Assembly (NCBI GenBank): GCA_024636955.1 | Contig: JAGXGB010000021.1 | Coordinates: 1-55,943, forward strand | Length of the DNA: 55,943 nucleotides | Direction of reading: 5' to 3' | Origin: Bacteroidales bacterium | Lineage (GTDB): Bacteria > Bacteroidota > Bacteroidia > Bacteroidales > Lentimicrobiaceae | Part shown: in pieces, positions 4,353 to 51,859 of the stretch | How positions within the stretch are numbered: the stretch's first letter is position 1 | How the letters are laid out: each line of letters starts with the position of its first letter | Notes under the pieces: generated by a model | Database searches by the model: none | The model's input: only the letters and a program-made list of their open reading frames with translations | Told to the model about the DNA's origin: nothing | Translations under genes and position numbers: made by a program

Positions 4353-4396
4353 AAGACGCTTATAAGACGCTTATAAGACGCTTATGAGACGCTTAT
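4353..4396. repeat. Four tandem 11-bp units after arcB
   Basis: Units AAGACGCTTAT at 4353-4363, 4364-4374 and 4375-4385 are identical; the fourth (4386-4396) differs only in its first base. ATAAGCGT at 4341-4348 and TAAGCGT at 4332-4338 are reverse complements of the unit core, so several alternative hairpins are possible. The array spans 44 bp. Confidence 0.93.
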
Positions 4397-4400
4397 GATA

Positions 4401-4435
4401 AAAATGAAGCCCTAATCAATCAGGGCTTCATTTTT
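4401..4435. terminator. Bidirectional terminator between arcB and the GH92 gene
   Basis: A perfect stem with arms 4401-4413 and 4422-4434 (core AATGAAGCCCT) and a loop of about 8 nt, flanked by A-rich and T-rich sequence on the two sides. It can serve both converging transcripts. Confidence 0.85.
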
Positions 4436-4490
4436 AGTTTTAAAAAAGATAAGCTAGTGCGCGATTGTCAAATCGGCAATTGTTGAATAC

Positions 4491-6776: not shown

Positions 6777-6812
6777 TGATATGGTAATTGAAGGTTATTT
6801 ATTAGGGTTAAG

Positions 6813-6820: not shown

Positions 6821-6853
6821 TGACAGTTTTTAGAAAATTATTCTACCAACGCA

Positions 6854-8727: not shown

Positions 8728-9111
8728 TTATTGATTAATAAGAACTTTCCTGTAACCATCAATAATATTGAGCGTATTAAAGGTAATAATTATTCCCATA
8801 CGCATGCCGCTAAGTTTGAGTTTTGACTGCATTGACGCTATATGCAAAGGTGTAATATCCTGATGTTGCATGCAATCTATAATGATATTGTTCTCTACCA
8901 GGAATTCAACCACTAATTCTCCTGCCTTATGATCTTTATAGATAACAGGGAAACAAATATCCTTCTTGAACATCAGTCCTTTAATCCTGAATTCATGCAA
9001 CAGGCTGGAACGATATACCTGCGACGACAGCCCAGGCCCAAGGATACTGTGAACCTCAGCTGCTGCTTCGAAGATTTTTGTATGTACTTTGCTAAGTTCA
9101 GCCCTGCTCAT
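8728..9111 (-). CDS. GxxExxY family protein with degenerate active site
   Basis: A 127-residue member of the GxxExxY (PD-(D/E)XK type 3-like) family, recognised from AAAEVHSILGPGL, LHEFRIKGL, FPVIYKDHKAG, KLKLSGMRMGIIITFN and a C-terminal DGYRKVLIN. The name-giving motif has changed: GPGLLESVY of typical members reads GPGLSSQVY, losing the Glu. The nuclease-like D...ExK positions read VVEFLVENNIIIDCM, that is Asp to Glu, Glu to Asp and Lys to Met. The family has no settled function; this copy should be catalytically inactive if the fold works as a nuclease. Its start codon lies inside the first unit of the 22-bp array at 9097-9206, which separates it from rfbD. Confidence 0.8.
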   Translation of the reverse strand: MSRAELSKVHTKIFEAAAEVHSILGPGLSSQVYRSSLLHEFRIKGLMFKKDICFPVIYKDHKAGELVVEFLVENNIIIDCMQHQDITPLHIASMQSKLKLSGMRMGIIITFNTLNIIDGYRKVLINQ

Positions 9112-9206
9112 TGCTAAATCCAGTCTTGCTCATTTATAAGTTCAGTCCTGCTTATTGCCACGTTTAGTCTTGCTCATTTCTGAGTTCAGTCCTGATCATT
9201 TAATTG
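9097..9206. repeat. Five tandem 22-bp units at the rfbD / GxxExxY junction
   Basis: Units at 9097-9118, 9119-9140, 9141-9162, 9163-9184 and 9185-9206, all exactly 22 bp, share the consensus YYYAGYCYTGCTCATTT plus a variable tail. On the minus strand the unit at 9185-9206 holds the rfbD stop (TGA, 9188-9186) and the unit at 9097-9118 holds the next gene's ATG (9111-9109). The units at 9163-9184 and 9141-9162 carry TAA and TGA at the same offset, so the three stops fall in three different frames. Confidence 0.95.
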
Positions 9207-10046
9207 ATTAAGACACAGTTTAAGACTATCACGCCAATGCGGGATTGATGCTCCGGTGGTTGATTTATATAATGTTTTATTCAGCACACTGTAGAAAGGA
9301 CGGGGGGCAGGTAATGGATATTCGGAAGTGAAGATTGGTTCAACGGTACACTCAATTCCCTGAATTTCAACTATAGCTTTCGCGAAATCATACCAGCTAC
9401 ACACACCTTCATTTGAGAAATGATAGATTCCTGCATTAGCACTAACTTCAATCATCTTCATCACTGCATTAGCTAAGTCACCTGTCCATGTTGGAGTTCC
9501 TACCTGATCGCACACAATACGCATGCTTCCTTTTTCAGTGGCAAGACGCAGGACGGTTTTGAGGAAGTTCTTTCCGTAGACAGAATAAAGCCAGGAAGTT
9601 CTTATAACAATTGAGGTTGGGTTATTGGCCAATACAAGGTCCTCACCCAGAGCTTTTGATTGTGCATAAACTCCTTGCGGGCTTTTAGGATGATCTTCAG
9701 CGTATGGGAAGTATCCTTTTCCATCAAACACATAGTCAGTGCTGATATGCACAAGACGAATATGGTGTTTATCACTAATGCGTGCAAGTATAGCAGGAGC
9801 ATCAGTATTCAACCTGTTAGCCATATTAGCATCAGATTCAGCTTGGTCAACTGCTGTATAGGCTGCACAATTTATTATCCACGAAGGATTAAAGGATGAC
9901 AACACTGATTCTATTTGTGATTCATTGGTGATGTCAAGTTCAGGCAAGTCAGTAAACTGAAACTCAAAATCATTAGACATTGAACTGTATAGTTTCAATT
10001 GACTTCCAAGCTGACCGTTTCCTCCGGTAACCAGTATTCGCTGCAT
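9186..10046 (-). CDS. rfbD: dTDP-4-dehydrorhamnose reductase
   Basis: An extended short-chain dehydrogenase of 286 residues. It has the Rossmann motif VTGGNGQLGSQL at the N-terminus, LDITNESQI, NCAAYTAVDQAE near residue 60, STDYVFDGKG, and the catalytic YxxxK in YAQSKALGE near 130. RTSWLYSVYGKNF is a strong RfbD signature. It reduces dTDP-4-dehydro-L-rhamnose to dTDP-L-rhamnose in the cytoplasm. It is the last gene of a ugd-uxs-rfbD run, 9 bp after uxs; rfbA, rfbB and rfbC are not in the window. Its last codons lie inside the 22-bp tandem array. Confidence 0.92.
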   Translation of the reverse strand: MQRILVTGGNGQLGSQLKLYSSMSNDFEFQFTDLPELDITNESQIESVLSSFNPSWIINCAAYTAVDQAESDANMANRLNTDAPAILARISDKHHIRLVHISTDYVFDGKGYFPYAEDHPKSPQGVYAQSKALGEDLVLANNPTSIVIRTSWLYSVYGKNFLKTVLRLATEKGSMRIVCDQVGTPTWTGDLANAVMKMIEVSANAGIYHFSNEGVCSWYDFAKAIVEIQGIECTVEPIFTSEYPLPAPRPFYSVLNKTLYKSTTGASIPHWRDSLKLCLNQLNDQD

Positions 10047-19303: not shown

Positions 19304-19635
19304 ATGGCTGCTTTTTGGAGTTTTTAAATACCATAACTGGATTCTCATTAGAATTTAATTGCACCATAACTAACTGCTCTTTTAAATTTGAAATGAGCTT
19401 AACTGGCTGCTCTTTTACATTTTGAACAGATTCAAGTAATTAACATTTGCCGATTAAGTTATCTTCGGTTGCCAATTAAGTAGTATTCATTTGCCAGCTA
19501 ATCTCTGTTTGAGTAATTAACATTTGCCGGTTACAAACTAAATAGAAAACGTGGAATAAGGTCAGTTCTTTTTGCCTAACTTAGCAATTCAAACAAGCAT
19601 TTGAACCGTAACATATTAACTTCTTAAATACCAGA
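19304..19635. repeat. Repeat-filled intergenic region between efflux and pst operons
   Basis: 332 bp with no coding signal. Three consecutive 22-bp units start with TTGCC at 19447, 19469 and 19491 (first pair 16 of 22 identical). GTAATTAACATTTGCCG occurs at 19436 and again 77 bp later at 19513, that is 3.5 units, with an 11-bp half unit at 19513-19523. An earlier motif CTGCTCTTTT recurs at 19374 and 19407 (33 bp apart), with a weaker copy at 19308. TAACTTAG at 19577-19584 is a poor match to a -7 box and may serve pstS. Confidence 0.75.
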
Positions 19636-20628
19636 ATGATGAATATCAAAGGAACAAATGGTAAACTGTTTTTTTTCAGCAAATTCTTTTTGGTTGCTAT
19701 TATATTATGGTCTTGCAGCAGCAGGGAAGATAAATCAATTAGAAAAGCTGACGGTACTATTAAAGGTACTATATCAATTTCAGGTGCCTTTGCACTATAT
19801 CCCATGGCAGTTTTATGGGCAGAAGAGTTTAATAAGATACATCCTGAAGTTAGAATCGATATTTCGGCTGGTGGGGCAGGGAAGGGGATGACCGATGCGC
19901 TTTCACAGATGGTGGACCTTGGTATGTTTTCCCGTGAAGTCACCAAAGCTGAACAAGATAAGGGTGCATGGTGGATTGCAGTTGCAAAAGATGCCGTAGT
20001 TGCAACTTATAATCCTTTAAGCACATCAGCTGAACTAATAAAAGCAAAAGGAATTAGTAAGGAAATGTTGATTGATATTTATGTTAAGGGAGAGATTAAA
20101 ACCTGGGGTGAGCTATACTCAACATCAGATAAGACCAGACTAAATGCATATACTCGTTCAGATGCATGCGGTGCTGCTGAAATGTGGGGCAATTTCCTTG
20201 GAAGCAATCAAGAGTCGTTGAAAGGAGTGGGTGTCTTCGGAGATCCAGGAATTGCAGATGCCGTAAAAAATGACAAAACTGCTTTAGGGTATAATAATGT
20301 AATTTATGCCTATGATATGAATACAAGGAAACCTTATGATGGGATTGCAGTAGTTCCTCTCGATCTTAATAATGATGGCATAATAAGTGAAGATGAAAAT
20401 TTCTATGGTACATTAGACAACATGATGGCAGCTATTGCATCAGGGAAATATCCTTCGCCTCCTGCCCGTGATCTTTACTTCGTTTCAAAAGGTAAACCAA
20501 AGAATATTGCAGTGCTTGCTTTTTTAGAGTGGATTGTAACTGAGGGACAAAAGTATGTACATAAAGCAGGGTATGTTAATTTAACTGAGGAGAAAGTTGC
20601 AAGTGATCTACAAAAGCTTTCAGAGTAA
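19636..20628 (+). CDS. pstS: Phosphate ABC transporter substrate-binding lipoprotein
   Basis: A 330-residue PstS-like protein. The hydrophobic leader ends in the lipobox ILWSC, so it is a lipoprotein facing the periplasm. The mature protein has ISGAFALYPMAVLWAEEF, the usual PstS opening SGSxxLxPL in a divergent form. It continues with SAGGAGKGMTDALSQMVDLGMFSREV, where the Gly/Ser-rich loops contact the ligand, then YTRSDACGAAEMW and TALGYNN. pstC, pstA and pstB follow directly. It could bind phosphate or a related oxyanion; phosphate is the default. Confidence 0.87.
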   Translation: MMNIKGTNGKLFFFSKFFLVAIILWSCSSREDKSIRKADGTIKGTISISGAFALYPMAVLWAEEFNKIHPEVRIDISAGGAGKGMTDALSQMVDLGMFSREVTKAEQDKGAWWIAVAKDAVVATYNPLSTSAELIKAKGISKEMLIDIYVKGEIKTWGELYSTSDKTRLNAYTRSDACGAAEMWGNFLGSNQESLKGVGVFGDPGIADAVKNDKTALGYNNVIYAYDMNTRKPYDGIAVVPLDLNNDGIISEDENFYGTLDNMMAAIASGKYPSPPARDLYFVSKGKPKNIAVLAFLEWIVTEGQKYVHKAGYVNLTEEKVASDLQKLSE

Positions 20629-21535
20629 GAATGTATGGCGTTTTTTCAGAGTCACCAGACATCTGAGAAGCAAATTGCATACAATATGGATGATCATCGG
20701 CCTGGTGATTGTTATTCTGCTGCCGTTTATTCTTGGAATTGGACTCTATATCAAGTCAATTTTACTGCTTGAAGACCAATCGTTATTTCAATTATTATTC
20801 TCAGGTGATTGGCGACCCTTGTCAGGCAAATTTGGTTTTCTGCCTTTTATTATTAGTTCAGTGTGGGTAACTACCATTGCACTTATGATTGCGGGACCAA
20901 TATGCCTTTTGACAGCTGTACACCTTACACAGTATGCTAAACCATGGGTGCTCAAGTTAATGCAGCCTGTAATTGATATTCTGGCTGGCATTCCATCTGT
21001 TATATTTGGTGTGTGGGGAATATTGGTAATTGTGCCGTTTATTTCTGATTACCTGGCACCTTTTTTAGGTAAACAAACATCAGGATATAGCATTATTGCA
21101 GGTGCAATTGTGCTAGCTGTGATGGTTATACCGTTTATTCTGAATATACTGATAGAAGTATTTAAAACATTACCAGATGAGCTTAAAGAAGCCTCCTTAT
21201 CACTTGGTGCCACAAAATGGCAGACAATTAAGCTTGTGCTCTTACGAAAAGCATTTCCTGGTGTGATATCAGCATTTGGGTTAGGTGTGTCACGGGCTTT
21301 TGGAGAAACGATTGCGGTGTTAATGGTAGTAGGAAATGTTGCTTCAATTCCTAAAGGTTTGTTTCAGCCAGGTTATCCATTGCCTGCGCTTATAGCAAAC
21401 AATTATGGTGAAATGCTTTCAATACCGCTCTACGATTCTGCTTTGATGCTTGCTGCACTTGTTTTATTTGTGGTGGTTATGTTGTTTAATATGGGTTCAA
21501 GGTTTGCTATCTCGCGATTAGAAGAAAAGGTGTAA
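20597..21535 (+). CDS. pstC: Phosphate ABC transporter permease PstC
   Basis: About 312 residues with six membrane helices and the BPD_transp_1 fold. Markers are DILAGIPSVIFGVWGI, the EAA loop DELKEASLSLGATKWQTIKLVLLRKA and GVSRAFGETIAVLMVVGN, all typical of PstC. The start is uncertain: TTG 20597 and GTG 20603 both lie inside pstS, and the first ATG (20690) would begin at the first membrane helix. The last six codons, RLEEKV and the stop, are the first unit of a 22-bp array that continues to the pstA start codon. Confidence 0.9.
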   Translation: MQVIYKSFQSKNVWRFFRVTRHLRSKLHTIWMIIGLVIVILLPFILGIGLYIKSILLLEDQSLFQLLFSGDWRPLSGKFGFLPFIISSVWVTTIALMIAGPICLLTAVHLTQYAKPWVLKLMQPVIDILAGIPSVIFGVWGILVIVPFISDYLAPFLGKQTSGYSIIAGAIVLAVMVIPFILNILIEVFKTLPDELKEASLSLGATKWQTIKLVLLRKAFPGVISAFGLGVSRAFGETIAVLMVVGNVASIPKGLFQPGYPLPALIANNYGEMLSIPLYDSALMLAALVLFVVVMLFNMGSRFAISRLEEKV

Positions 21536-21581
21536 GAGATTTGAAGAAAGGGTATAAGAGATTAGAAGAAAAAGTATAAGA
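21516..21581. repeat. Three tandem 22-bp units between pstC and pstA
   Basis: Units 21516-21537, 21538-21559 and 21560-21581 follow the pattern GATTWGAAGAAARRGTRTAAGA. The first holds the end of pstC with its TAA (21533-21535). The copies repeat TAA at 21555 and 21577, which places stops in all three frames. The last base of the array is the A of the pstA ATG. Confidence 0.96.
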
Positions 21582-22438
21582 TGAGGAAGTTCAGACACAT
21601 AGAAGAAAAGTTTTTTAGGGTACTCATGTTCCTGTCAACAAGCATTATTGTTATATCACTCTCAGTAATAATTTTCAGCATCTTACACAAAGGACTACCT
21701 TCATTATCGTGGGAAATGATAAGCCAAACCCCAAAAGGTGGTTTCTATTTTGGCAAGGAAGGTGGAATTTTGAATGCAATAGTTGGGTCGCTATATCTGG
21801 CAATCGCGTCAACAATACTGGCTCTAATTATTGGGTTACCTGTAGCACTTATGATGAATGTGCATTTGGTCAAGTATAAGAAGCTGGTTGACAGTATTCG
21901 GTTCTTCCTTGACCTTTTATGGGGGGTGCCTTCCATTGTTTATGGAGCATTTGGATTTTCTGTAATGATTTATTTCGGCCTGAAGACTTCCTTATTGGCT
22001 GGTATTTTGACAGTTACATTGTTCATTATTCCCATTATGGTAAGGGCTATGGATGAGGTGTTAAAGACAATTCCCCGTGGATTGATGGAAACGGCGATGT
22101 CACTTGGGTCTACATCTTCTGAGATATCATACAGGATTTATCTGCGTCAGGTAATTTCAGGACTAATCACAGCAGTGCTATTATCGTTTGGAAGAGCTAT
22201 AGGTGATGCAGCATCGGTATTATTCACAACCGGTTACACTGATCACATTCCTACTGCATTGAATCAACCAACAGCCACTTTGCCACTGGCTATTTTCTTT
22301 CAGTTGAGCTCTCCAATACCCGAAGTGCAAAATCGTGCCTACGCATCAGCGCTGATTTTAACTATTATTATCTTATTTATCAGTATATTGTCGAGAATTT
22401 TCTCACAGAAATATCAGAAAAACAGAATTAAAAACTAG
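21581..22438 (+). CDS. pstA: Phosphate ABC transporter permease PstA
   Basis: A 285-residue permease with six membrane helices. It shows GGILNAIVGSLYLAIASTILALIIGLPVA, DLLWGVPSIVYGAFGF, the EAA loop MDEVLKTIPRGLMETAMSLGSTSSEI and SFGRAIGDAASVLFTTGYTD, a PstA signature. The protein's own N-terminus, MRKFRHIEEKFF, lies outside the repeat; the array only reaches its first base. pstB follows after 3 bp. Confidence 0.92.
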   Translation: MRKFRHIEEKFFRVLMFLSTSIIVISLSVIIFSILHKGLPSLSWEMISQTPKGGFYFGKEGGILNAIVGSLYLAIASTILALIIGLPVALMMNVHLVKYKKLVDSIRFFLDLLWGVPSIVYGAFGFSVMIYFGLKTSLLAGILTVTLFIIPIMVRAMDEVLKTIPRGLMETAMSLGSTSSEISYRIYLRQVISGLITAVLLSFGRAIGDAASVLFTTGYTDHIPTALNQPTATLPLAIFFQLSSPIPEVQNRAYASALILTIIILFISILSRIFSQKYQKNRIKN

Positions 22439-23282: not shown

Positions 23283-23348
23283 TTTTACACCATTGTTTAT
23301 TAGGTTATACAACATTGTGTATCAAGCTATACCACCATTTCATTCCAG
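23283..23348. repeat. Degenerate 22-bp tandem units between pstB and glnN
   Basis: Units 23283-23304 and 23305-23326 agree at 17 of 22 positions around TWTACAMCATTGT. A third, 23327-23348, agrees less well (about 13 of 22) and needs a 1-base shift at its end. They sit in a 244-bp convergent intergenic region with no gene or clear terminator. Confidence 0.65.
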
Positions 23349-23408
23349 ATGAGCAGAGTGGTTATATTTAACATATACCCTATTTCACTCTCACAACTTT
23401 CCAATGCA

Positions 23409-23459
23409 TTAACGTGCAAAGGTTACAGTATTACCAGTGAACTACCTTTAACGTGCAAA
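23409..23459. repeat. Duplicated stop-codon segment at the 3' end of glnN
   Basis: On the minus strand the 12-mer TTTGCACGTTAA forms the last codons and stop of glnN (23459-23448) and recurs 39 bp downstream (23420-23409). The spacing is a multiple of three, unlike the 22-bp arrays, so the second stop is in frame with the first. Confidence 0.75.
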
Positions 23460-25628
23460 TAGCAGTTCCCTATATTTAGGAAGTGGCCACATCTCATCAT
23501 CAATCAGCAATTCAAGTTTATCCACATGGTACTTGATTTGCTCAAAATATGGGAATACTTTATCACGATAATCAAGCGCCCTGTTTTCCAGATCACTGTA
23601 TTTGTTAATTACTTTCCTGGTTTCTACCATCTTCTGGACCATGTTCTTGATGTTGATGATATGATCAGATATGTCACGAATTGTATCAGTCTGTGTCTTT
23701 GAAAGCGATTGGAAGGTCTTTGAATCAAGAACTTCTTTTAAACCTATTACATTCTCGATCAACTGATTCTGATATCTGATTGCTATCGGAATGATATGAT
23801 TTATTGCCAGATCACCAATTACACGTGATTCAATCTGCACTTTTCTAACATAGTTATCAAGTTGTATCTCATATCGAGCTTGTATTTCTCGGCGGGTTAG
23901 GACATCATTGTCTTCAAACACGCTCACTGCATCATTACTAATCAATGTTTTAAGTGCTCTGGGAGTATCAGCAATATTAGAAAGTCCTCGCCGTGCTGCT
24001 TCTTCTACCCACTCCTGGCTGTAACTATTTCCTTCGAACAATATCTTTCTTGATTCCTTGATGTATCTGTTAAGAATCAGGTACATTGCCTCTTCGCGCT
24101 TCATATTCTGAGCAACAAGTCGTTCAGTTTCAATGCGGAAAAGTTTTAATTGATTTGCAACAATGGTATTTAGTGCAATCATTGGAACAGCACAATTAGC
24201 AGATGAACCCACTGCTCTGAACTCAAACTTGTTACCTGTAAAAGCAAATGGTGATGTGCGGTTTCTGTCAGTATTATCAGGCAGTATTTCCGGGATTTTA
24301 GGAATATTGTAAGGTTTATTTGCTTTTTTTGTTCCAGCCTGAGTTGTTATAGATTCCAGTTGATCAAGTGCTTCAGTGAGACGTGTCCCAATAAAGGCAG
24401 AGATAATTGCCGGGGGAGCTTCATGACCTCCGAGTCGAAGGTCGTTTCCAGCAGATGCGATATATGCTCTCAGTACATCAGCATGTTCCTCAACAGCTTT
24501 AAGAATATTAATTAGGAATACAAGGAATTGAAGATTCTCCTCAGGTGTTTTGCCGGGAGAAAGCAAGTTTTCTCCTTTATCTGTCTGCATCGACCAGTTA
24601 TTGTGTTTACCTGAGCCATTTATGTTAGCATATGGCTTTTCATGCAATAACACCGTGTAACCATGCCTTTTCCCAATCTTTTCAAGCAAGTGCATCAGCA
24701 ACTGATTGTGGTCGATGGCAACATTTACTTCTTCATAGGCTGGAGCACATTCAAACTGTCCGGGTGCAACTTCATTATGTCTGGTTTTAACTGGTATACC
24801 TAATCTGATAGCTTCATATTCAAATTCACGCATAAAATCAATAACTCTTTCAGGAATGGCCCCAAAGTAATGATCAGCTAATTGCTGGTCTTTTGCACTT
24901 GCATGCCCGAATAAAGTACGACCAGTTAGTGAAAGATCTGGTCGTGCACTATAAAGAGCGGAATCAACTATAAAGTATTCTTGCTCCCAGCCCAAAGTAG
25001 CTTGCACTCGTTTGACACTACTATCAAAAAACTGGCAGATTTGAGTTGCTTCAGATTCCAATACAGTCAATGCTTTTATAAGTGGGAGCTTATAATCTAG
25101 TGATTCACCTGTATATGAAATGAATATAGTAGGAATACACAATGTTCCATCAAGTATAAAAGAAGGGGAGGTGGGGTCCCAGGCAGTATAACCTCTTGCT
25201 TCAAATGTATTCCTTATTCCACCATGGGGAAAGCTTGAAGCATCAGGTTCTTGTTGAACCAGTTCGTTCCCTGTAAAGTTTTCAATTGCCTTACCGTCTT
25301 CGAGTAAAGTAATAAAGGCGTCATGCTTTTCAGCAGTTGCTCCTGTTAGTGGATGAAACCAGTGGGAGAAGTGTGTAGCACCTTTTGATATAGCCCACGT
25401 TTTCATTCCTGAAGCGATTTGATCAGCATTGCGGCGCTCAATTTTAACACCTTGCTCAACCGCCTCCTGAACAGCCTTATACGCTTCGCGAGATAAGAAA
25501 TCACTCATTGCAGCTTTGTTGAAAGTTAATTCACCAAAATAAGCTGATGGGCGAGAAGGAATTACTGGTAACTGGCGTTTTGAACGCTGCATTGACATTT
25601 CCAATGCTTTAAACCTGATATTGGACAT
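23448..25628 (-). CDS. glnN: Glutamine synthetase type III
   Basis: A 726-residue GSIII, close to the family length of about 730. It makes glutamine from glutamate, ammonia and ATP. Visible blocks are FGELTFNKAAM, the GSIII-specific THFSHWFHPLTG and EKHDAF near residue 85, and LGWEQEYFIVD. NEVAPGQFECAP, NINGSGKHNNWS and RTSPFAFTGNKFEFRAVGSSANCA form the metal and substrate sites. GSIII is the dominant glutamine synthetase in Bacteroidota. A TATTTTTG promoter box is at 25665-25672. The stop segment is duplicated 39 bp downstream. Confidence 0.97.
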   Translation of the reverse strand: MSNIRFKALEMSMQRSKRQLPVIPSRPSAYFGELTFNKAAMSDFLSREAYKAVQEAVEQGVKIERRNADQIASGMKTWAISKGATHFSHWFHPLTGATAEKHDAFITLLEDGKAIENFTGNELVQQEPDASSFPHGGIRNTFEARGYTAWDPTSPSFILDGTLCIPTIFISYTGESLDYKLPLIKALTVLESEATQICQFFDSSVKRVQATLGWEQEYFIVDSALYSARPDLSLTGRTLFGHASAKDQQLADHYFGAIPERVIDFMREFEYEAIRLGIPVKTRHNEVAPGQFECAPAYEEVNVAIDHNQLLMHLLEKIGKRHGYTVLLHEKPYANINGSGKHNNWSMQTDKGENLLSPGKTPEENLQFLVFLINILKAVEEHADVLRAYIASAGNDLRLGGHEAPPAIISAFIGTRLTEALDQLESITTQAGTKKANKPYNIPKIPEILPDNTDRNRTSPFAFTGNKFEFRAVGSSANCAVPMIALNTIVANQLKLFRIETERLVAQNMKREEAMYLILNRYIKESRKILFEGNSYSQEWVEEAARRGLSNIADTPRALKTLISNDAVSVFEDNDVLTRREIQARYEIQLDNYVRKVQIESRVIGDLAINHIIPIAIRYQNQLIENVIGLKEVLDSKTFQSLSKTQTDTIRDISDHIINIKNMVQKMVETRKVINKYSDLENRALDYRDKVFPYFEQIKYHVDKLELLIDDEMWPLPKYRELLFAR

Positions 25629-25664
25629 CTACTCGTTGTTTAGAATCAATTAAACACTCAGAAA

Positions 25665-25672
25665 CAAAAATA
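25665..25672 (-). promoter_or_regulatory. -7 box of glnN
   Basis: TATTTTTG on the minus strand, a TAnnTTTG match about 37 nt ahead of the glnN ATG. Confidence 0.45.
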
Positions 25673-25711
25673 ACAATAGAAATGTTTCAACAATTGTAAA
25701 TGATTTCACTA

Positions 25712-29458: not shown

Positions 29459-30481
29459 TTAAAAGCTCCATGTAACAAGACCTTGAGTAGTAAACTCATA
29501 TCTTTTTGCTTCTCCTCCAAACCGCTTTAGTGACTCAATGACTCTCGACCTATTATCACCTGGACAATAGAAAATCATAAACCCACCTCCACCAGCACCA
29601 CTTATCTTACCGCCTGATGCTCCGTTAGCTCTCGCAGTTTCATATATTTCATCTAATAAGGGGTTTGAAATCTCTTCTGCCATTTGCTTCTTAAAAGTCC
29701 AACCAAAGTCTAATATCTCGCCTATTTTATTTAAGTTCCCTCGCAATAGCGCTTCTTTCATCATCACAGATTGCTTTTTAAGCTGATGCATTGCCTCAAT
29801 AGACTTCTGGTCATTCTTTATGACATTTGCTGATTGGGCTTCAATTATCTTTGAAGATAGGCGACTGGTCTGAGTGTAAAACAGCACAAGATTGTGGGAA
29901 AGCTCATTTAGATAAATGTCCTTAATTCTGAGGGGATTGACAATTACATTATCATTTCCGGCAAACTCCATAAAGTTAACTCCTCCAAAGGTAGCAGCAT
30001 ATTGATCCTGCTTCCCACCTGCCATTCCTAAATCAACTCTTTCAATATCATAGGCTAATTTGGCAAGGTCGTATTCACCTAGAGGTAACTTAAGCCACTC
30101 TGCGAAAGCACCCAAAATTGCAACTACGAGTGTTGACGAAGTGCCCAGTCCAGAGCCGGCAGGTGCATCTACCGAGGTAGACAAAGTGAAAGAAAGCGGT
30201 TTTCTGGCAAAATCTTTAACCACTCTGTTGTACACGCCCCTGTGCAGATTCAGTATTCCATTCACAGGAATTGATTCTGCGCTCTTTAATTCATGGAATT
30301 CATTTTTATCAATTGAGTGCAAAACAATTTTCCCATCATTTCGGGGAACAATTGTGGCATAAGCGTATAAACTGATGGTAGCATTAAGGATTGCACCCCC
30401 ATATAGGTCAGAGTAGGGGGAAACATCTGACCCTCCCCCTGCCAGTCCAATTCTCAATGGTGCCTTACTTCTAATAATCAT
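29459..30481 (-). CDS. hddA: D-glycero-alpha-D-manno-heptose 7-phosphate kinase
   Basis: A 340-residue GHMP kinase. The N-terminal PLRIGLAGGGSDVSPYSDLYGG is typical of HddA-like sugar kinases, the ATP loop is DAPAGSGLGTSSTLVVA near residue 108, MAGGKQDQYAATFGGVNF follows, and the third motif is GASGGKISGAGGGGFMIFY near the C-terminus. It phosphorylates C1 of heptose 7-phosphate in the alpha configuration, which commits the pathway to GDP-activated rather than ADP-activated heptose. It lies 15 bp after the T9SS cargo gene on the same strand. Confidence 0.92.
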   Translation of the reverse strand: MIIRSKAPLRIGLAGGGSDVSPYSDLYGGAILNATISLYAYATIVPRNDGKIVLHSIDKNEFHELKSAESIPVNGILNLHRGVYNRVVKDFARKPLSFTLSTSVDAPAGSGLGTSSTLVVAILGAFAEWLKLPLGEYDLAKLAYDIERVDLGMAGGKQDQYAATFGGVNFMEFAGNDNVIVNPLRIKDIYLNELSHNLVLFYTQTSRLSSKIIEAQSANVIKNDQKSIEAMHQLKKQSVMMKEALLRGNLNKIGEILDFGWTFKKQMAEEISNPLLDEIYETARANGASGGKISGAGGGGFMIFYCPGDNRSRVIESLKRFGGEAKRYEFTTQGLVTWSF

Positions 30482-30496
30482 GTATTATTCTAATGG

Positions 30497-31873
30497 TTAT
30501 CTTCCTGTGACTAATGCTTTCTGTGTAGTAACGCCTATATTAGTGATAACCTGAATTGTATATAATCCACTCTCTAGGCCTGAAAGATCACAATAATAAG
30601 TGTTAATACCTTGAGAAATTCGGTAGTCACTATTATTCAGCACAATTGTACCAGTGTGATTAATAATTCGTATACTCTTTAATTGAACTGTTTCATTACC
30701 CTGAATCACCTGAAAAATACCATTTGATGGGTTTGGATAAATTTTTATATTCTCAGGATAAGAGTTTGCAATTTTCTCACTGATCAAGTTAATAGAGTCA
30801 CAATGCATCAAATTATCACAATCACTTGATACTGTCAAGCATACTTGATAACATCCTAACTCATTATAATAGTGGAGTGGATCTCTTAAATAAGAAAAAA
30901 AGCCATCTCCAAAATCCCACAGATATTGGTAGTTATCAACTGTATCAGAAGGATTGAACTGAACGTAGTAACCGGAAATTTCATGAATAAAATCAGCTAC
31001 TAATGGTGGACATGTTACATTAATTAGTTCACAATAAGTGGTTGTATCGCACTCATTTGCCACAGTTAAACAAACATTATATATTCCTGTGTCTGGAAAA
31101 GTGTAGACTGGATTAGCCAAATCTGAATAAAAACCATTACCAAAATCCCACCAAAAGTAGGTATTAGTTGGTTCATTAGCAGTAAATTGCAATTCATTTT
31201 GATTACCAGTAAATGAAAATGTATATGAGGCATCGGCAAGATCGCACGTTGTGTATTCAATTGAAAGAAGAGGACGTTTAGTGGAGTCTATATGATCACT
31301 TGAAGAAAATACCATTGCAGCATAAAGTTCTTCTTCTTTCAATTGAAACATAAAGCCGAAATTCTGATCCGGATTATCGTAAAAGTACTTTATAAGATTA
31401 GTAACATCAATGTTTGGGTAGTCTTGAATCTGAGCTATTGAAGCAGGAATCTCAACAGCATCTTCATATGTCACCGCTGGCTGAGTATTCCAAGTGGCAG
31501 AATATTGATCCCACGGTTGTGTGATTCTGAGCAAATAGCTGGCATTGTCTCCTGAATGAATCTGATGATGGCCGGTGATAGTATTACAAAACAATGAGAG
31601 TTTTGCACCAACAATAACCGCACCTTCAGGGAGTGAAGATAAATCGAACTTTAATAGGCTTCTTTCTACAAATGGAGCACCCTGAACAGTCCATGCATTT
31701 GCAATAAAATCATCCTCATACCAGATTGGCCAGTCCATGTCAGTTCTGATCTCGCAATCAATCCCTTCATTTGGCCCCGGTCGCAATTCAATAGTTTGAG
31801 TGTTTTGTGATAATACTTGATAACAGTTTAAGAACAAAGAAATTAACAGTAACCAATGTATAAGATTTTTCAT
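30497..31873 (-). CDS. T9SS cargo protein with DNRLRE-like and PKD domains
   Basis: A 458-residue secreted protein. A signal peptide (WLLLISLFLNCYQVLSQ) is followed by a DNRLRE/CBM96-like beta domain of about residues 25-215 (RSLLKFDLSSLPEGAVIVGAKL, WDQYSATWNTQPAV). Two PKD domains follow (FWWDFGNGFYSDLANPVYTF; YLWDFGDGFFSYLRDPLHYY), and then a C-terminal type A sorting domain (IKIYPNPSNGIFQV ... KALVTGR). The sorting domain routes it through the type IX secretion system to the surface. DNRLRE and PKD modules usually bind or stiffen; no catalytic motif is visible. It sits between a glycosyltransferase gene and hddA with 20- and 15-bp spacers, so it is co-transcribed with glycan genes. Confidence 0.88.
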   Translation of the reverse strand: MKNLIHWLLLISLFLNCYQVLSQNTQTIELRPGPNEGIDCEIRTDMDWPIWYEDDFIANAWTVQGAPFVERSLLKFDLSSLPEGAVIVGAKLSLFCNTITGHHQIHSGDNASYLLRITQPWDQYSATWNTQPAVTYEDAVEIPASIAQIQDYPNIDVTNLIKYFYDNPDQNFGFMFQLKEEELYAAMVFSSSDHIDSTKRPLLSIEYTTCDLADASYTFSFTGNQNELQFTANEPTNTYFWWDFGNGFYSDLANPVYTFPDTGIYNVCLTVANECDTTTYCELINVTCPPLVADFIHEISGYYVQFNPSDTVDNYQYLWDFGDGFFSYLRDPLHYYNELGCYQVCLTVSSDCDNLMHCDSINLISEKIANSYPENIKIYPNPSNGIFQVIQGNETVQLKSIRIINHTGTIVLNNSDYRISQGINTYYCDLSGLESGLYTIQVITNIGVTTQKALVTGR

Positions 31874-31893
31874 AAGGCGGAATTTGGTTTTGT

Positions 31894-33027
31894 CTATAGG
31901 ATTACTTTATCAATTGTTTCAATTAATCCATTCCATGAAAACCGTTCCCGCTCAGTTTTCACATTCTCTGTAAATTCCTCTTCTCGTTTCTCCGAGTAGA
32001 ATCTAAAAATTGCATTTTCAATTGCATCCACATTGGGTTCAACAACAAACCCCACTTTCCCATCCGGAACCATTTCTGATAAGCCACCTACATTTGTAGT
32101 TATCATAGGTTTCTTAAAGTAATAAGCAATCTGAGTAACACCACTCTGAGTTGCATTTTTATATGGCTGTACTACAACACTGCTTGCACAGAAATACAAA
32201 TTTACTTCTGTGTTTGGAATAAAACAAGTTTTTAATACTAAAAATTCAACAAGGTTGAGTTTTTTAATCAACTCTTGATACTTTACTTCATTGTCATAGA
32301 ATTCTCCGGCTATTATTAGTTTTACTGGAAGTTCCTTGATACGCTTGCTTGCGATTGCTTTAAGCAATAAATCAAGGCCTTTATAATCGCGAATAAACCC
32401 AAAAAAAAGCATGTAGGAATAATTTGGATCAAGTCCGAGTTTTTGTAATGCAACCTCCTTAGAAATGATTTCTCCAAAATTATCGTACAAGGGATGTGGA
32501 TTGTACCTTCTAGGTTTATTATTGTCGAAACCATTTAGATCATTAAGTACTGATCTTGACATGGCGACGAATCCATCAACTGATGAGATAAAGTATTTAG
32601 AAAGTAATCTATCAGCAAATCTCTTCTCATGAGGAACAATGTTGTCAGTAATTGAGATTATCCTTGTTTTTATCTTTTTTCTTATTAACCTGGCAATACT
32701 TCCTAAGCATGGTGCCATGAAAGGCAACCAATACCTTATTATGATTAAAGCAGGTTTGAGCTCTGCTACTTTAGTTGCTGTTTTATACCAGGTAATTGGG
32801 TTTATAGAGTTAATTGTAATCCTGATATCAAGCCTCTCTGGTGGCTCTTCCTTTGAGAGTTGAGTAGTTCCTGGAAACAGAAATGAAGGATATTGCAAGC
32901 TAAATGTAAATATAGTTACATCATCACCATAATCCAGATAAGCCTGAGCTAACCGTTCATTGAATGTGGTTATACCACCCCCCCTCAACGGATAAGCAGA
33001 TCCAATGATTACAACCTTTCTGCCCAT
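31894..33027 (-). CDS. Glycosyltransferase family 4
   Basis: A 377-residue GT-B fold glycosyltransferase. The N-terminal domain opens VVIIGSAYPLRGGGITTFNERLA, the usual glycine-rich acceptor loop of GT4. The C-terminal domain has MLFFGFIRDYKGLDLLLKAI and then VVQPYKNATQSGVTQIAYYFKKPMI, the donor-binding region where GT4 enzymes normally have an ExxxxxE motif (here less clear), and TNVGGLSEMVPDGKVGFVV. The ATG overlaps the GT2 stop as TGATG. Donor and acceptor are unknown; nearby GDP-heptose genes make a manno-configured donor plausible. Confidence 0.88.
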   Translation of the reverse strand: MGRKVVIIGSAYPLRGGGITTFNERLAQAYLDYGDDVTIFTFSLQYPSFLFPGTTQLSKEEPPERLDIRITINSINPITWYKTATKVAELKPALIIIRYWLPFMAPCLGSIARLIRKKIKTRIISITDNIVPHEKRFADRLLSKYFISSVDGFVAMSRSVLNDLNGFDNNKPRRYNPHPLYDNFGEIISKEVALQKLGLDPNYSYMLFFGFIRDYKGLDLLLKAIASKRIKELPVKLIIAGEFYDNEVKYQELIKKLNLVEFLVLKTCFIPNTEVNLYFCASSVVVQPYKNATQSGVTQIAYYFKKPMITTNVGGLSEMVPDGKVGFVVEPNVDAIENAIFRFYSEKREEEFTENVKTERERFSWNGLIETIDKVIL

Positions 33028-38737: not shown

Positions 38738-40021
38738 TTAATATTGATATTTTGAATGCCAAAGTCGGCGCAAACGTTGCCTGAATTCTTCTTCACGTGC
38801 GTTATTACCCGGTTCATAGAGTTTCTGTCCTTTTATCTTGTCGGGCATGAACTCCATATCTACAAAGTTGCCTTCGTAACTATGTGCATATTTGTAGTCT
38901 GCACCGTATCCAATATTCTTCATAAGGTTTGTGGGTGCATTCCTTATATGCAGTGGCACTGGCAAATCACCGGTTTTTCTTACCATAGCAAGTGCATCTT
39001 CAATAGCCATATATGAAGCATTGCTTTTTGGTGAACACGCCAGATAAACAGCGCATTGTGAAAGTGTTATGCGGCATTCAGGATATCCGGTTTTATGGAC
39101 TGCATCAAAACACGTATTTGCTAACAATAATGCATTCGGATTGGCATTGCCTATATCTTCTGATGCTAAAATAAGCATACGTCGTGCAATAAACAATGGA
39201 TCCTCACCTGATTCAATCATTCGGGCAAGGTAGTACACCGCTGCATTAGGGTCGCTCCCCCTGATTGATTTTATAAAAGCTGAAATTATGTCGTAGTGCA
39301 TTTCACCTTTCTTGTCATACATTGAGATATTCTGCTGTATGATTGAAAGTGCAGTCTTGTTATCAACTATTATGCTCTGGTCTTTTTCTTTCTTTTTGGT
39401 GGTTGTGGCAATTATCTCAAGTGCATTCAAGAGCTTGCGGGCATCTCCACCTGATATCCTCATCAACGCTTCTGTTTCTTTAATAGCAAGTTTAATATTG
39501 AGGACTTCGTTTATTTTCTTTACTGCACTTTCAATAATCTTGTTCAATTCATCCTCATCAAGCGATTTCAGTATGTATACCTGACATCTTGAAAGTAGGG
39601 GAGAGATCACTTCGAATGAGGGGTTTTCAGTAGTTGCACCAATAAGGGTAATGATCCCCTTTTCAACAGCACCAAGAAGTGAATCCTGCTGTGATTTACT
39701 GAAGCGGTGTATTTCATCAATGAATAGCACAGCATTTGAACCGCTGACTCTGGCAGTTTCAATAACCTCCCTAATATCTTTGACACCTGAATTGATGGCA
39801 CTTAAGGTATAGAAGTTTCGATTTAAAGTTTTAGCAATCAAAAAAGCAAGTGTTGTTTTCCCAACACCCGGCGGTCCCCAAAATATCATAGAAGGCAAAT
39901 TGCCACTATCAACTGAGCGCCTTAGCACAGCATCAGGCCCTATAAGATGTGTTTGACCTACATAGTCATCAAAACTTTCCGGACGCATTAATTCAGCTAA
40001 AGGAGGCAAACTCACCATCAT
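38738..40021 (-). CDS. rarA: Replication-associated recombination protein A (AAA+ ATPase)
   Basis: A 427-residue RarA/MgsA/WRNIP1-type ATPase acting at stalled forks. Walker A is WGPPGVGKTTLAFLIA near residue 48, Walker B is VLFIDEIHRFSKSQQD, sensor 1 is IGATTENPSFE and sensor 2 is ISGGDARKLLNAL. The C-terminal tetramerisation region has SDPNAAVYYLARMIESGEDP and SEDIGNANP. Two adjacent ATGs (40021 and 40018) are possible starts. The start region and its promoter are duplicated in a 56-bp tandem repeat. Confidence 0.95.
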   Translation of the reverse strand: MMVSLPPLAELMRPESFDDYVGQTHLIGPDAVLRRSVDSGNLPSMIFWGPPGVGKTTLAFLIAKTLNRNFYTLSAINSGVKDIREVIETARVSGSNAVLFIDEIHRFSKSQQDSLLGAVEKGIITLIGATTENPSFEVISPLLSRCQVYILKSLDEDELNKIIESAVKKINEVLNIKLAIKETEALMRISGGDARKLLNALEIIATTTKKKEKDQSIIVDNKTALSIIQQNISMYDKKGEMHYDIISAFIKSIRGSDPNAAVYYLARMIESGEDPLFIARRMLILASEDIGNANPNALLLANTCFDAVHKTGYPECRITLSQCAVYLACSPKSNASYMAIEDALAMVRKTGDLPVPLHIRNAPTNLMKNIGYGADYKYAHSYEGNFVDMEFMPDKIKGQKLYEPGNNAREEEFRQRLRRLWHSKYQY

Positions 40022-40102
40022 TAATTATTTAGTACTACAAAGATAAATTCAGCTAAAGGAGGCAAGCCAACCATCATTAATTATTTAGAACTACAAAGAT
40101 AA
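39991..40102. repeat. 56-bp tandem duplication of the rarA promoter and start
   Basis: 39991-40046 and 40047-40102 are near-identical copies differing at a handful of positions. Each contains, on the minus strand, TATCTTTG (40039-40046 and 40095-40102), an A/T-rich leader, ATGATG and the codons for SLPPLAEL or GLPPLAEF. The outer ATG is out of frame with rarA because 56 is not a multiple of three. Confidence 0.95.
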
Positions 40103-45822: not shown

Positions 45823-45848
45823 TCATTGATAGAGTAATTCTTGATTAT

Positions 45849-45892
45849 TTAAACGATAGTCCGGGCTCATTAAAACGATAGTCCGGGCTCAT
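45849..45892. repeat. Two tandem 22-bp units after the DUF302 gene
   Basis: 45849-45870 and 45871-45892 agree at 21 of 22 positions (TWAAACGATAGTCCGGGCTC plus AT). This is the cleanest and probably youngest of the 22-bp arrays. Confidence 0.97.
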
Positions 45893-45975
45893 TTGCTAAT
45901 TATCAATTGAAGCGCATCAGATAAATAAGCTTTACGGAGGAAAAGCCTAATAAAGTCATAGGACTGTCATGCATC

Positions 45976-48770: not shown

Positions 48771-48778
48771 CAAAATTA
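48771..48778 (-). promoter_or_regulatory. -7 box ahead of the FMN riboswitch
   Basis: TAATTTTG on the minus strand, a TAnnTTTG match ending 5 nt before the riboswitch P1, as expected for a leader that starts with the aptamer. Confidence 0.6.
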
Positions 48779-48937
48779 TATCAATTTTTTATATTCTTAC
48801 TATAGCCGATTAATTTTTTAATGGGTTTTTCTTTAAATTTGCTCTTTCAGTAGCAACATATATCTGTATGGTCACCCTCGCCATATTGGACAAATATTAG
48901 CTAAATGCGCCTGTAACAAAGAAATAACGTAAATTGC

Positions 48938-51811
48938 ATGGTCTTTACCGGTGATAAGGGCGTAATTAAATACTCAATGGAGAGAGATAAACCAAGCAGT
49001 ATTATCCCGTCAATATATCAAAAAGCTTTTAGGCAACTGCCTTTAGCCCTCATCATGCTTGATCAGCATCATGGAATTGTTGATGTAAATCTCCTTGCAT
49101 TTGAGGTTACAGGTTTGCATGAAGGGATTATTGGGCTTAATTTCTATGATATAATATCTGTAGATGAAATTAACAATATTGAGCCAATTAATCAGGCACT
49201 TGCCACTGCTTCAGATTCATTGGCTGACATAGTCTTAGATCCTGTAAAATTCAAATCAGAATATGTACATGATAATAACATCGTGTTCAAGGCTAAAGTG
49301 CTTGTATCAGATGAATCGTGTTACATAATTGAATTGCATAAAACACACAGTTATAAAGAGTCGCTTGCAACTTTTCTGGCCGAAGTCCCAAATGATCACA
49401 ATGAATCGCTCAAAACTTTTACTAATACTTCACAGTATCCTTTCTGCATCGTTGATATAAAAAATAAGACATACCTTCTTAGAAACAGCGCACATTTAGA
49501 GCTTGAAAATAAGTTAGTCAATAACAGTAGCCTCGAAGAAATTCCGTTTTTAGTTGATAGTGCAATACCTTTCAGCGTTTATCATGAAACCACTCAGCAA
49601 TCAACAGTTCCTTTCGTTGAGGAACATGAATATATTGACAGGGAAGGTCAAAAGGTTTATTATGAGATTAATGGTTATCCAATAATTTCAAAAGAACTTG
49701 ATTTTCATTTCACTATCTTGAATTATAGGGATATAACTACTGAAGTTAAAGCCCGTCAAACTATTGAAGATTACCGAAACGCATTCAAAGAGTTATTCTC
49801 TACACTCCCAGGAATGGTATTCAGATGTTTGAATGAAACCAACTGGACTGTTGAGTATGCAAGTGCAGGAAGTAAAGCGCTTACTGGATATAATGCTGAG
49901 GAAATTGTGAACAATAATAAAGTACGCTATGGCGATCTTATCCATGAAGATGACCGTCAGATGGTATGGGATGTAATTCAGGAATCAATCAAGCGAAGGC
50001 GCTTTTACGATGTACGTTACCGCATAATCACCAAAAAAGGCAAGATAAAATGGGTTTCGGAAAGAGGAAAAGCTACCTTCGACCAGCATGACCAGGTTGT
50101 CAGCATTGGCGGCTTTGTAACCGATATTTCTGAAGGCAAACTAGCTGAAATTACTCTAAAGAAGGAATTACAGATAAGTGAATCAATTGCACAGATCAGT
50201 ATGCAGCTTTTGCAGGATACAGTTACACCAATCAAGATATCAAAGCTAGTGCAGGATTATGTGAGAGTGTTTTCTGGCAGCAATTTCTCAGTGATTTATT
50301 CACCTGATGAGAATGGGGCGGGGTATACTCTTTTTAACCATTCTACAGAAGATGAAATAATAACCGTACATCCCGAAAAATACACTAACAGTCAGTTCAA
50401 GCTGCTTGAGAAGTTTAAGGCCGATCCTAAAGCTTATATTAACAATGAAGAATCATCTATAATTCTTCCGGGATTATGGGATGACGAAAAAACTATTTCA
50501 CGCCTGATCTGTATACCTGCCTTCACAAATAACAAACTCTCCGGATTGCTCATCATGGGTGGTGCTGAAGAAGATTATACAGAAGAGACTATCTCAGCGG
50601 GACAAAGGCTTATAAACATGTTCTCTCTTGGGTTATATAGGCTTAAGGCCGAAGAAACTTTGCAGGACGCCAAAACAAAAGCTGAGGAATCAGACCGTTT
50701 GAAGAGTTTGTTCCTTTCAAATATGTCGCACGAGATAAGGACTCCAATGAACGCTATTGTTGGGTTTGCTGAGATGTTACAGGATACTGATCTGAGCCGT
50801 GAGCAAAAGAATAAGTTTCTTGATGTGATTATTAAGAGTGGTGATAATTTGCTGAGGTTGATCAATGATATTATTGATATTTCGAAAATTGAAGCCGGGC
50901 AGTTGAAATTTGACTATTCTGATTGCTTAGTGAATGAAATGGTTTACGACCTGGAAACATACTTCAAACAGGAGATGGTTCGGCAGAAGAAGGAGCATAT
51001 AAAGCTATATACCCAACTCGGGCATCCGGAAAGTGATTTTGCATTGCAAACCGACTGTGTACGCTTAAAGCAAATACTCAACAACTTGATCGGGAACGCT
51101 ATAAAATTCACTGATGAGGGCTTTATAGAGTACGGTTATAAAATTAAATCAGGGTATATTGAATTCTTTGTACGTGATTCAGGTATTGGAATAGCACCTG
51201 ATAAGCAGAAGCTGATTTTTGAACGTTTCGGACAAGTGCAGGAAGCCATATCACGCAATTTATCAGGCACAGGTTTGGGTTTGACCATATCAAAGAACCT
51301 TGTTGAAATGCTGGGTGGAGAACTATGGGTTGACTCAATGCCTGGTGAAGGTTCGACTTTTTTCTTTAACCTTCCACTGCGAATAGGAGCTACCAATACA
51401 ACAAGGGTGCAGAAGGATGTGTCTGAAGAAAACAGACAAACAATTGATCTTCAAGGTAAAACAATACTGGTTGTGGAAGATGTTGATACCAACTTTTTCT
51501 ATATGAGTTCGCTCCTGCAGAAACTAAATTGCAAAATTGTAAGAGCAAACAACGGTCAGAAAGCTATTGACATGTGCAAGAACGACCCTTCAATTGACCT
51601 GGTATTAATGGATATTGAACTACCGGTGCTTGATGGCTATAAGGCGACAGCCGAGATCAAAAAGTTCAGGCCCGAATTGCCAATTATTGCACAAACTGCC
51701 TTTGCAATGATGGGCGAGCGGGAGAGAAGCAGAGAAGCAGGATGTAATGATTATCTCGCCAAACCAATACGGAAAGAAGAGTTAATTAAAACTCTGAAAA
51801 AATACATGTAA
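48938..51811 (+). CDS. PAS/GAF hybrid sensor histidine kinase with C-terminal receiver
   Basis: A 957-residue hybrid kinase without clear membrane segments, so probably cytoplasmic. A PAS domain lies near residues 30-120, a weaker PAS-like segment near 150-270, a PAS_3 domain near 283-405 (YASAGSKALTGYNAEEI, RIITKKGKIKWVSERG) and a GAF-like domain near 415-565. The H-box is FLSNMSHEIRTPMNAIVGF with His 598. The ATPase domain has LKQILNNLIGNAIKFTDEG, FFVRDSGIGIAPDKQ and SGTGLGLTISKNLVEMLGG. The receiver ends the protein with phospho-acceptor Asp 892 (LVLMDIELP). ATG 48977 is another possible start. Its receiver is closely related to the REC protein at 658-1068. Its last five codons and stop form the first unit of a 22-bp array. 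Confidence 0.92.
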   Translation: MVFTGDKGVIKYSMERDKPSSIIPSIYQKAFRQLPLALIMLDQHHGIVDVNLLAFEVTGLHEGIIGLNFYDIISVDEINNIEPINQALATASDSLADIVLDPVKFKSEYVHDNNIVFKAKVLVSDESCYIIELHKTHSYKESLATFLAEVPNDHNESLKTFTNTSQYPFCIVDIKNKTYLLRNSAHLELENKLVNNSSLEEIPFLVDSAIPFSVYHETTQQSTVPFVEEHEYIDREGQKVYYEINGYPIISKELDFHFTILNYRDITTEVKARQTIEDYRNAFKELFSTLPGMVFRCLNETNWTVEYASAGSKALTGYNAEEIVNNNKVRYGDLIHEDDRQMVWDVIQESIKRRRFYDVRYRIITKKGKIKWVSERGKATFDQHDQVVSIGGFVTDISEGKLAEITLKKELQISESIAQISMQLLQDTVTPIKISKLVQDYVRVFSGSNFSVIYSPDENGAGYTLFNHSTEDEIITVHPEKYTNSQFKLLEKFKADPKAYINNEESSIILPGLWDDEKTISRLICIPAFTNNKLSGLLIMGGAEEDYTEETISAGQRLINMFSLGLYRLKAEETLQDAKTKAEESDRLKSLFLSNMSHEIRTPMNAIVGFAEMLQDTDLSREQKNKFLDVIIKSGDNLLRLINDIIDISKIEAGQLKFDYSDCLVNEMVYDLETYFKQEMVRQKKEHIKLYTQLGHPESDFALQTDCVRLKQILNNLIGNAIKFTDEGFIEYGYKIKSGYIEFFVRDSGIGIAPDKQKLIFERFGQVQEAISRNLSGTGLGLTISKNLVEMLGGELWVDSMPGEGSTFFFNLPLRIGATNTTRVQKDVSEENRQTIDLQGKTILVVEDVDTNFFYMSSLLQKLNCKIVRANNGQKAIDMCKNDPSIDLVLMDIELPVLDGYKATAEIKKFRPELPIIAQTAFAMMGERERSREAGCNDYLAKPIRKEELIKTLKKYM

Positions 51812-51859
51812 TTAGCTGTAAAAATGCATGTAATTATCTGAAAAAATACATGTAATTAC
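51794..51859. repeat. Three tandem 22-bp units between convergent kinase and dnaE genes
   Basis: 51794-51815, 51816-51837 and 51838-51859 follow CTGWAAAAATRCATGTAATTA plus one base; units 1 and 3 agree at 21 of 22. Unit 1 ends the kinase with TAA at 51809, and the copies repeat TAA at 51831 and 51853, covering all three frames. The near-palindrome GTAATTAC in unit 3 also supplies the dnaE stop on the minus strand (51858-51856). Confidence 0.97.

Follow-up and report, generated by a model that had tools for sequence, protein, structure and literature searches.

Local tandem duplications with unit lengths near multiples of 11 bp in noncoding DNA of a Bacteroidales genome

Many prokaryotes carry a few intergenic minisatellites (Subirana and Messeguer 2019, PMC6749651). 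Here, we study tandem arrays in the noncoding DNA of a Bacteroidales bacterium (Lentimicrobiaceae; GenBank assembly GCA_024636955.1), based on a stretch of 55,943 nucleotides (contig JAGXGB010000021.1), which is the whole of contig 41 of the draft genome (3.22 Mb, 83 contigs, 93% complete) and is called the window in the following. Like prokaryotic intergenic minisatellites or variable-number tandem repeats (VNTRs; PMC6749651), the arrays with units of 22 bp and more are unique, locally grown and intergenic, and they consist of head-to-tail copies of a 10-100 bp unit. They differ in their unit lengths, i.e., 39/82 noncoding arrays with a period of at least 12 bp are multiples of 11, chiefly 22 and 33. 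To our knowledge, minisatellites and VNTRs have no preferred unit length besides multiples of 3 in genes, and this expectation is broken here. The accessible part of the survey cited above requires at least 4 copies and describes multiples of 3 as well as families built from hexamer, heptamer and 6-8 nt repeats, but no multiples of 11. Likewise, the open-licence literature we searched, represented partly by excerpts, holds no report of bacterial tandem repeats whose unit lengths come in steps of 11 bp.

Other known systems share single aspects with these arrays. Heptamer tandem repeats are an established kind, as described in the available text of the SPADE survey of 7006 genomes (PMC6344855) and, for TAACTGA repeats including those of five Bacteroidetes, in that of PMC4679880. 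This genome is rich in heptamers, too, which form its other large noncoding class (37/152 arrays, e.g., AGGCTAA). However, heptamer (STRR) arrays have period 7 and repeat few sequences often, while the periods 22 and 33 studied here come with unrelated units. Phased A-tracts and AA/TT periodicity match in length scale and intergenic location, with excerpts reporting a ~11-bp AA/TT periodicity in E. coli intergenic DNA (PMC516772) and A-tract repeats in the Mannheimia leukotoxin promoter (PMC2697988). Those are a dinucleotide signal or a promoter enhancer, in contrast to whole unrelated segments copied near gene ends. Finally, small tandem duplications in human cells arise by break-end fill-in involving Pol alpha-primase (PMC8355091, in part). 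They, too, are local tandem copies that form without an element, in their case at break ends, and no whole-turn length rule is seen in the text available. We regard the arrays as a kind of local tandem duplication with possibly a new process behind it. Our main reading, to which we assign a probability of about 0.4, is that the arrays of 22, 33 and 44 bp arose when single-copy junction DNA was duplicated locally and in tandem, with an insert length that tends to lie near whole helical turns (~11 bp) in this lineage.

To call arrays, we applied an ungapped lag scan to a genome sample of 61 stretches including the window (1,067,803 bases, chosen by place) and, as a separate second caller, Tandem Repeats Finder (TRF), which allows gaps. 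Open reading frames (ORFs) are mechanical calls and not curated genes; arrays that are at least 60% inside ORFs (39/191) were set aside from the noncoding counts. One array sits at two contig ends (L021, L048) and was counted twice, such that its removal lowers the noncoding total from 152 to 151. This duplicate is also taken out of the placement, residue and age tests and is still part of the TRF, internal-similarity and outside-window counts, of the counts of neighbouring periods and of the two-copy joint comparison.

A preference for a fixed length was claimed in the preliminary description, and the genome sample bears this out: the period distribution is not flat and has a spike at 22 accompanied by 11, 33 and 44. 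In total, 59/151 noncoding arrays repeat at multiples of 11 bp, namely 11 (20 arrays), 22 (21), 33 (10), 44 (4), 55 (2) and 66 (2). Neighbouring periods are scarce (10: 5; 12: 0; 21: 5; 23: 1; 32: 4; 34: 2; none at 43 or 45). When restricted to the sample outside the window, 35/76 arrays with a period of at least 12 bp are multiples of 11, compared to a mean of 6.9 and a maximum of 19 among 20,000 draws from the null. TRF yields 37/97 noncoding arrays for the same period range. After first-order shuffling of the initial 729 kb, block by block, 0 arrays reach the threshold of the scan. For the residues modulo 11 as well as for the age tests below, compound arrays (7/82 with a period of at least 12 bp, 0 of them multiples of 11) were removed. 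Among the remaining 75 noncoding arrays, residue 0 is found 39 times, followed by -1 (7) and -2 (6); +1 is found 3 times, and the other residues seen occur 2 to 5 times each. The expected confinement of these lengths to intergenic and gene-end DNA holds for the most part. It is not strict, since 8/39 arrays inside ORFs are multiples of 11 as well. Once called arrays are masked, the 11n signal in the noncoding autocorrelation of this genome is small (118 vs. 83), such that there is no clear sign of a pervasive older 11n layer. First autocorrelation runs scored N against N as a match, which inflated the baselines of the relatives G003 and G008; the noncoding run was redone without this.

Next, we relate this spectrum to that of other genomes. 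There are 18 further genomes of the same genus, with G008 being the closest relative. Averaged over 36 window proteins that are shared, this genome is 75.5% identical to G008 and 71.7% to G003. The value between G008 and G003 (76.2%) is raised because one segment was recently exchanged between the two; with that segment excluded, this genome and G008 are closer than G008 and G003 in 25/31 proteins. The exchanged segment (G008 contig C162, ~23,400-28,900, locus L126) matches the window genes at 27804-33027 and shows 93-99% protein identity between G008 and G003 for five genes, compared to only 54-89% in the rest of the window region, which points to the recent exchange. The window gene at 30497-31873 is just 35-36% like its counterpart in both relatives.

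Noncoding multiples of 11 amount to 8/14 arrays in 258 kb of G008, 1/11 in 336 kb of G003 and 0/8 in 240 kb of G001. For other genomes, the counts are 1/7 (G007), 0/0 (G014), 1/1 (G016), 0/0 (G011), 1/4 (G018) and 0/3 (G020). Using TRF with periods of at least 12 bp, we find 3/7 for G008. The respective control set (G003, seven further members of the genus, G020, 100 kb of E. coli K-12 and 30 kb from three distant loci) gives a pooled 3/35, which is near the 1-in-11 expectation, vs. 37/97 here (p 0.001). Arrays of period 11 itself are also present in controls (TRF, noncoding), i.e., in G003 (2/20), the seven genus members (5/44) and G020 (1/6). Whole-turn units above 11 bp are thus found in this genome and in G008, and G012 may have them, too. 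Among the genomes sampled, the spike is in accordance with a lineage-restricted trait, i.e., the whole-turn preference belongs to one pair of sister species and not to most of the sampled neighbours.

These comparisons also bear on whether the arrays are artefacts of assembly or of the repeat callers. The draft state of the genome (83 contigs) and the double count of one array located at two contig ends would fit such an origin. Adjacent units, however, differ by up to 29%, two callers agree, and the separate assembly of G008 shows the spike while most others processed alike do not. We consider an artefact extremely improbable, and the same three observations agree with the earlier view that the arrays are no assembly error.

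Within the window, six 22-bp arrays and one 11-bp array had been described, and all seven are present. High TRF scores are found for the 22-bp arrays at 9089-9200 (126; 146 when taken as 44-bp pairs), 21516-21581 (104), 51794-51858 (109) and 45847-45893 (87) as well as for the 11-bp array starting at 4353 (81). As a background, the window was simulated 100 times with a dinucleotide-Markov model (5.59 Mb in total). These versions contain 0 arrays scoring at least 80 and 15 scoring at least 55, and the top score at periods 20-24 is 72. The arrays at 19444-19496 (score 64) and 23286-23332 (score 59) are each possibly due to chance alone because the Markov versions yield such scores. That is, 4/6 22-bp arrays are far beyond chance and the other two are marginal. 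At its threshold, the ungapped scan misses both weak arrays and adds a 33-bp pair at 19367-19422. None of the arrays is assigned a strand.

We compared the junctions by eye across this genome, G003 and G008. The array at 21516-21581 (3 units) covers the stop codon of pstC (20597-21535, forward strand), a purine-rich stretch and the first base of the start codon of pstA (21581-22438, forward strand). Both relatives have one unit, which spans the final codons of pstC along with the purine-rich sequence ahead of pstA. The second junction is that of a GxxExxY gene (8728-9111, reverse strand) and rmlD (9186-10046, reverse strand). Here, the array at 9089-9200 has five units that copy the GxxExxY start region, with the ATG kept in four of them and a likeness that is higher at 44 bp. 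In G003 and G008 a single unit is found, where the GxxExxY start overlaps the end of rmlD; in this genome, the array parts the rmlD end from GxxExxY. Copy number at these orthologous junctions hence differs between species, with 3 vs. 1 for pstC-pstA and 5 vs. 1 for GxxExxY/rmlD. The arrays show one route by which overlapping or abutting genes become parted by new DNA.

The third junction is the end of a hybrid histidine kinase gene (48938-51811, forward strand). The array at 51794-51858 holds 3 x 22 bp and starts at the last codons (LKKYM-stop). G008 has 3 x 33 bp at the same gene end, starting within the LRKYV-stop codons, and no repeat was seen by eye in G003. Given 3 x 22 bp here and 3 x 33 bp there, both sisters amplified the same gene end with different whole-turn units, and the two amplifications would be independent events. 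On these alignments, local origin can be shown for three junctions, i.e., pstC-pstA, GxxExxY/rmlD and the kinase end. The preliminary description had each locus copying its own local DNA, which holds for these three and not for all, because no alignable single-copy counterpart of the array at 45847-45893 was found in G003 or G008. Three further gaps (at L166 and L172) are too diverged for alignment by eye. In an ABAB array (L166, 3136), a further step likewise proceeded by whole units. In addition, a G008 array with 44-bp units (L126, 4908) lies within the segment exchanged with G003. There, G003 retains a single unit plus nine bases of the following one before its sequence jumps to the gene, and it looks like G003 lost the rest later.

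The kinase end also bears on the mechanisms first suggested, i.e., breaks whose stagger is always 22 bp or a target duplication of that length. Neither is supported, given 22 vs. 33 bp at one orthologous gene end and 33-bp units being primary as well (see below). More generally, a mobile element or recombinase whose target duplication is 11n long could have left the arrays as footprints, as could CRISPR-type integration or reverse transcription. Repeated insertion and excision at one site would, by reasoning, leave tandem copies. But a transposon target duplication or excision footprint is expected to have one fixed length, in contrast to the two lengths at the kinase end, and no common flanking sequence was noticed, albeit without a systematic search for one. 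CRISPR arrays contain spacers and come with cas genes, while units are contiguous here. Cas1 and RVT_1, considered as a source in terms of integration or reverse transcription, were not found in this genome (93% complete) and are rejected as such. Overall, footprints of this kind appear very improbable.

Next, we investigated how the 11-bp arrays relate to those with longer units. They are two separate classes. The arrays of period 11 (class I) are dispersed: 18/21 in this genome (one inside an ORF) group into five sequence families under single linkage with 9 of 11 matches and G008 members included. Nine arrays carry CCTTGTATCAA and form one family. The window array at 4353-4398 has 4 units of AAGACGCTTAT, directly right of an inverted arm ATAAGCGT at 4341-4348, and its unit also occurs at L176 of this genome, with close variants at two G008 loci. 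The earlier statement that units are not dispersed consequently stands for units of at least 22 bp and fails for this one. The 20 noncoding 11-bp arrays have a median distance of 124 bp to the nearest ORF in gaps with a median of 419 bp, and 0 overlap an ORF. Recurrent families at several loci (18/21), as known for arrays of 11-bp binding sites, suggest that this class perhaps consists of putative phased protein-binding sites. Arrays of 11 bp are also seen in both orientations, namely at G012 L103 18981-19043 (about three units each way) and at G008 L139 5703-5780 (one clear inverted unit, then four direct ones).

For the longer units, the picture differs. Among 45 units of at least 22 bp from this genome and G008 (990 pairs), mutual likeness is about as in shuffled sequences except for one contig-end pair, by which we reject a single dispersed element behind this class. 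The arrays of this class have a median distance to an ORF end of 13 bp; 15/39 overlap one and 27/39 are nearest to a stop end. Only 4/39 are in divergent gaps, though such gaps hold about 1/4 of the inter-ORF bases. Noncoding arrays of other periods of at least 12 bp are placed alike, with a median of -1 bp to an ORF end (p 0.38) and 2/43 in divergent gaps. Since placement is equal, arrays of the 22+ class differ from other local duplications in length, not in role. It could be argued that the arrays serve regulators or nucleoid proteins as phased binding sites and were selected as such. This suits the 11-bp class, given its five families (18/21) and its location in long gaps far from ORFs. 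For the 22+ class it is largely contradicted by unrelated units (beside the contig-end pair), by the 15/39 arrays that overlap an ORF end, and by the unit at three junctions, which includes coding DNA and is single-copy in relatives. As an account of the arrays, selected binding sites are improbable.

Another explanation is ordinary replication slippage plus chance, where 22-bp arrays are divergent 11-bp arrays read as pairs. Slippage enlarges any array once formed, and units of 44 and 66 bp indeed hold 22-bp repeats (0.53 for 5 arrays and 0.61 for 2 arrays, respectively, at lag 22). Internal 11-bp similarity, on the other hand, is 0.298 vs. 0.282 shuffled for 22-bp units (22 arrays) and 0.222 vs. 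0.265 for 33-bp units (12 arrays), both for this genome and G008. Two and three turns are thus the primary lengths, and we discard 22-bp arrays as diverged 11-bp arrays for the same lack of internal similarity. In addition, relatives have one ancestral unit, and controls show 3/35 while 37/97 are found here. With its main points already contradicted, slippage plus chance is hardly a credible account.

To study how exactness relates to age, we classified the arrays by unit identity as young (at least 0.93), middle and old (below 0.85), and those with at least 2.6 copies as many-copy. Exact multiples of 11 account for 7/23 young, 18/34 middle and 14/18 old arrays. Young arrays are nevertheless near phase, i.e., 14/23 are within 1 bp of 11n compared to an expected 27% (p 7.5e-4), with near-phase lengths spread over 21, 22, 32 and 33. 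Two-copy arrays are exact in 20/49 cases vs. 19/26 for many-copy arrays (p 0.014), and the age effect persists within copy-number strata (p 0.022). TRF reports indels in 5/37 11n arrays above 11 bp vs. 29/60 arrays of other lengths (p 0.0005). The age, copy-number and indel tests were designed after the data were seen and are mutually dependent.

Near-phase young arrays together with exactness that rises with age and copy number suggest that helical phase is constrained within some tolerance and that survival is filtered as well, rather than an exact ruler alone. We tentatively attribute the arrays to a lineage-specific mutational process that makes duplications of two or three turns, near phase at birth, and is followed by a phase-dependent survival filter, which together would act as a physical ruler. 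The whole-turn constraint would hence act at birth and on survival. This builds directly on the length spike, the local origin at three junctions, the restriction to the lineage within the sample, and the observation that old and many-copy arrays are more often exact. The in-vivo helical repeat of underwound DNA is near 11 bp. In a first step, strand ends or nicks that share one face of the duplex at a distance of two or three turns may be filled in and rejoined; alternatively, sister duplexes may be misjoined by whole turns. Staggered-break fill-in is thus a possible birth step. In a second step, exactly in-phase arrays would persist and grow by ordinary copy-copy exchange, and in a third, out-of-phase arrays would decay and be lost, because whole-turn inserts presumably keep the rotational setting of the flanking DNA. 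If this is true, duplex geometry decides which duplications form or last. We know of no common treatment of bacterial noncoding indel and duplication lengths as structured apart from the reading frame; they are usually taken as structureless.

A purely selective filter could produce a similar pattern, i.e., duplications arise at all lengths and only whole-turn ones between neighbouring genes or bound proteins survive here. The climb of exactness with age and copy number as well as the fewer indels of 11n arrays are what such a filter would leave. It would have to be very fast, though, as the youngest arrays are already near phase (14/23 within 1 bp). Furthermore, phasing should matter most in divergent promoter gaps, but few arrays are found there, and their usual place is near gene ends. 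Selection alone is unlikely in our view.

Several observations weigh against whole-turn duplication followed by filtering. In deep coding sequence, a 33-bp excess is absent (33: 4 loci; 30: 4; 36: 6). A mutational ruler should give such an in-frame excess there, which disfavours one that acts everywhere. The pitch fit (mean resultant length) is best at 10.7 with a bootstrap range of 10.3-11.0 and is too flat to part 10.5 from 11, such that the integer counts (22 vs. 21 and 44 vs. 42) are the better argument for 11. With either caller, the evidence from G008 consists of few arrays, and G012, a control genome, has 4/19 noncoding multiples of 11 in 160 kb. Age is confounded with copy number through the detection threshold, and part of the indel contrast may come from the way in which TRF labels arrays that are ragged. 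Two-copy arrays match from -22 to +11 bp past two units, which singles out neither blunt fill-in nor microhomology slippage as the joint type. Finally, none of the enzymes searched for (Ku, Cas1, RVT_1, HU) tracks the trait.

In detail, Ku-type end joining was rejected as a lineage marker since Ku occurs here as well as in G003 and G007, whereas none was found in G008. The number of HU matches is two here and in G008 and one in G003 and G014 (78% and 83% complete, respectively); HU is general and its number uninformative as a marker. For whole-turn duplication with a survival filter, this genome and G008 vs. G003 and others are a natural comparison for finding the responsible protein.

Some window features remain. 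The 33-bp pair at 19367-19422 (1.7 copies) is located in the gap upstream of a pstS-like gene. The weak 22-bp array at 19444-19496 partly recurs 77 bp off, and the other weak one at 23286-23332 has 2 units. The array at 45847-45893 has 2 near-identical units between convergent genes. The gene content of the window, i.e., the pst phosphate operon, a SusC/RagA-like TonB-linked receptor, the hybrid histidine kinase and a glutamine synthetase-like protein, suggests Bacteroidota.

Heptamers are the commonest noncoding array period in this genome and are also present in relatives without the 11n spike. Long heptamer arrays of the TTAGCCT/AGGCTAA and AACCCCT types are found at L064 16598-16910, L002 1-144, L053 9396-9495 and others. 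Arrays with GGACAGGTC/GACCTGTCC near-palindromes occur at L046 19903-19978, L168 from 17865 and L184 from 11047 and possibly represent a dispersed inverted-repeat element. Within the window, interleaved direct repeats with lags of 33, 52 and 85 surround a gene junction at 27708-27827, and a 56-bp tandem pair at 39987-40102 (TRF score 198) overlaps the start region of the gene at 38738-40021.

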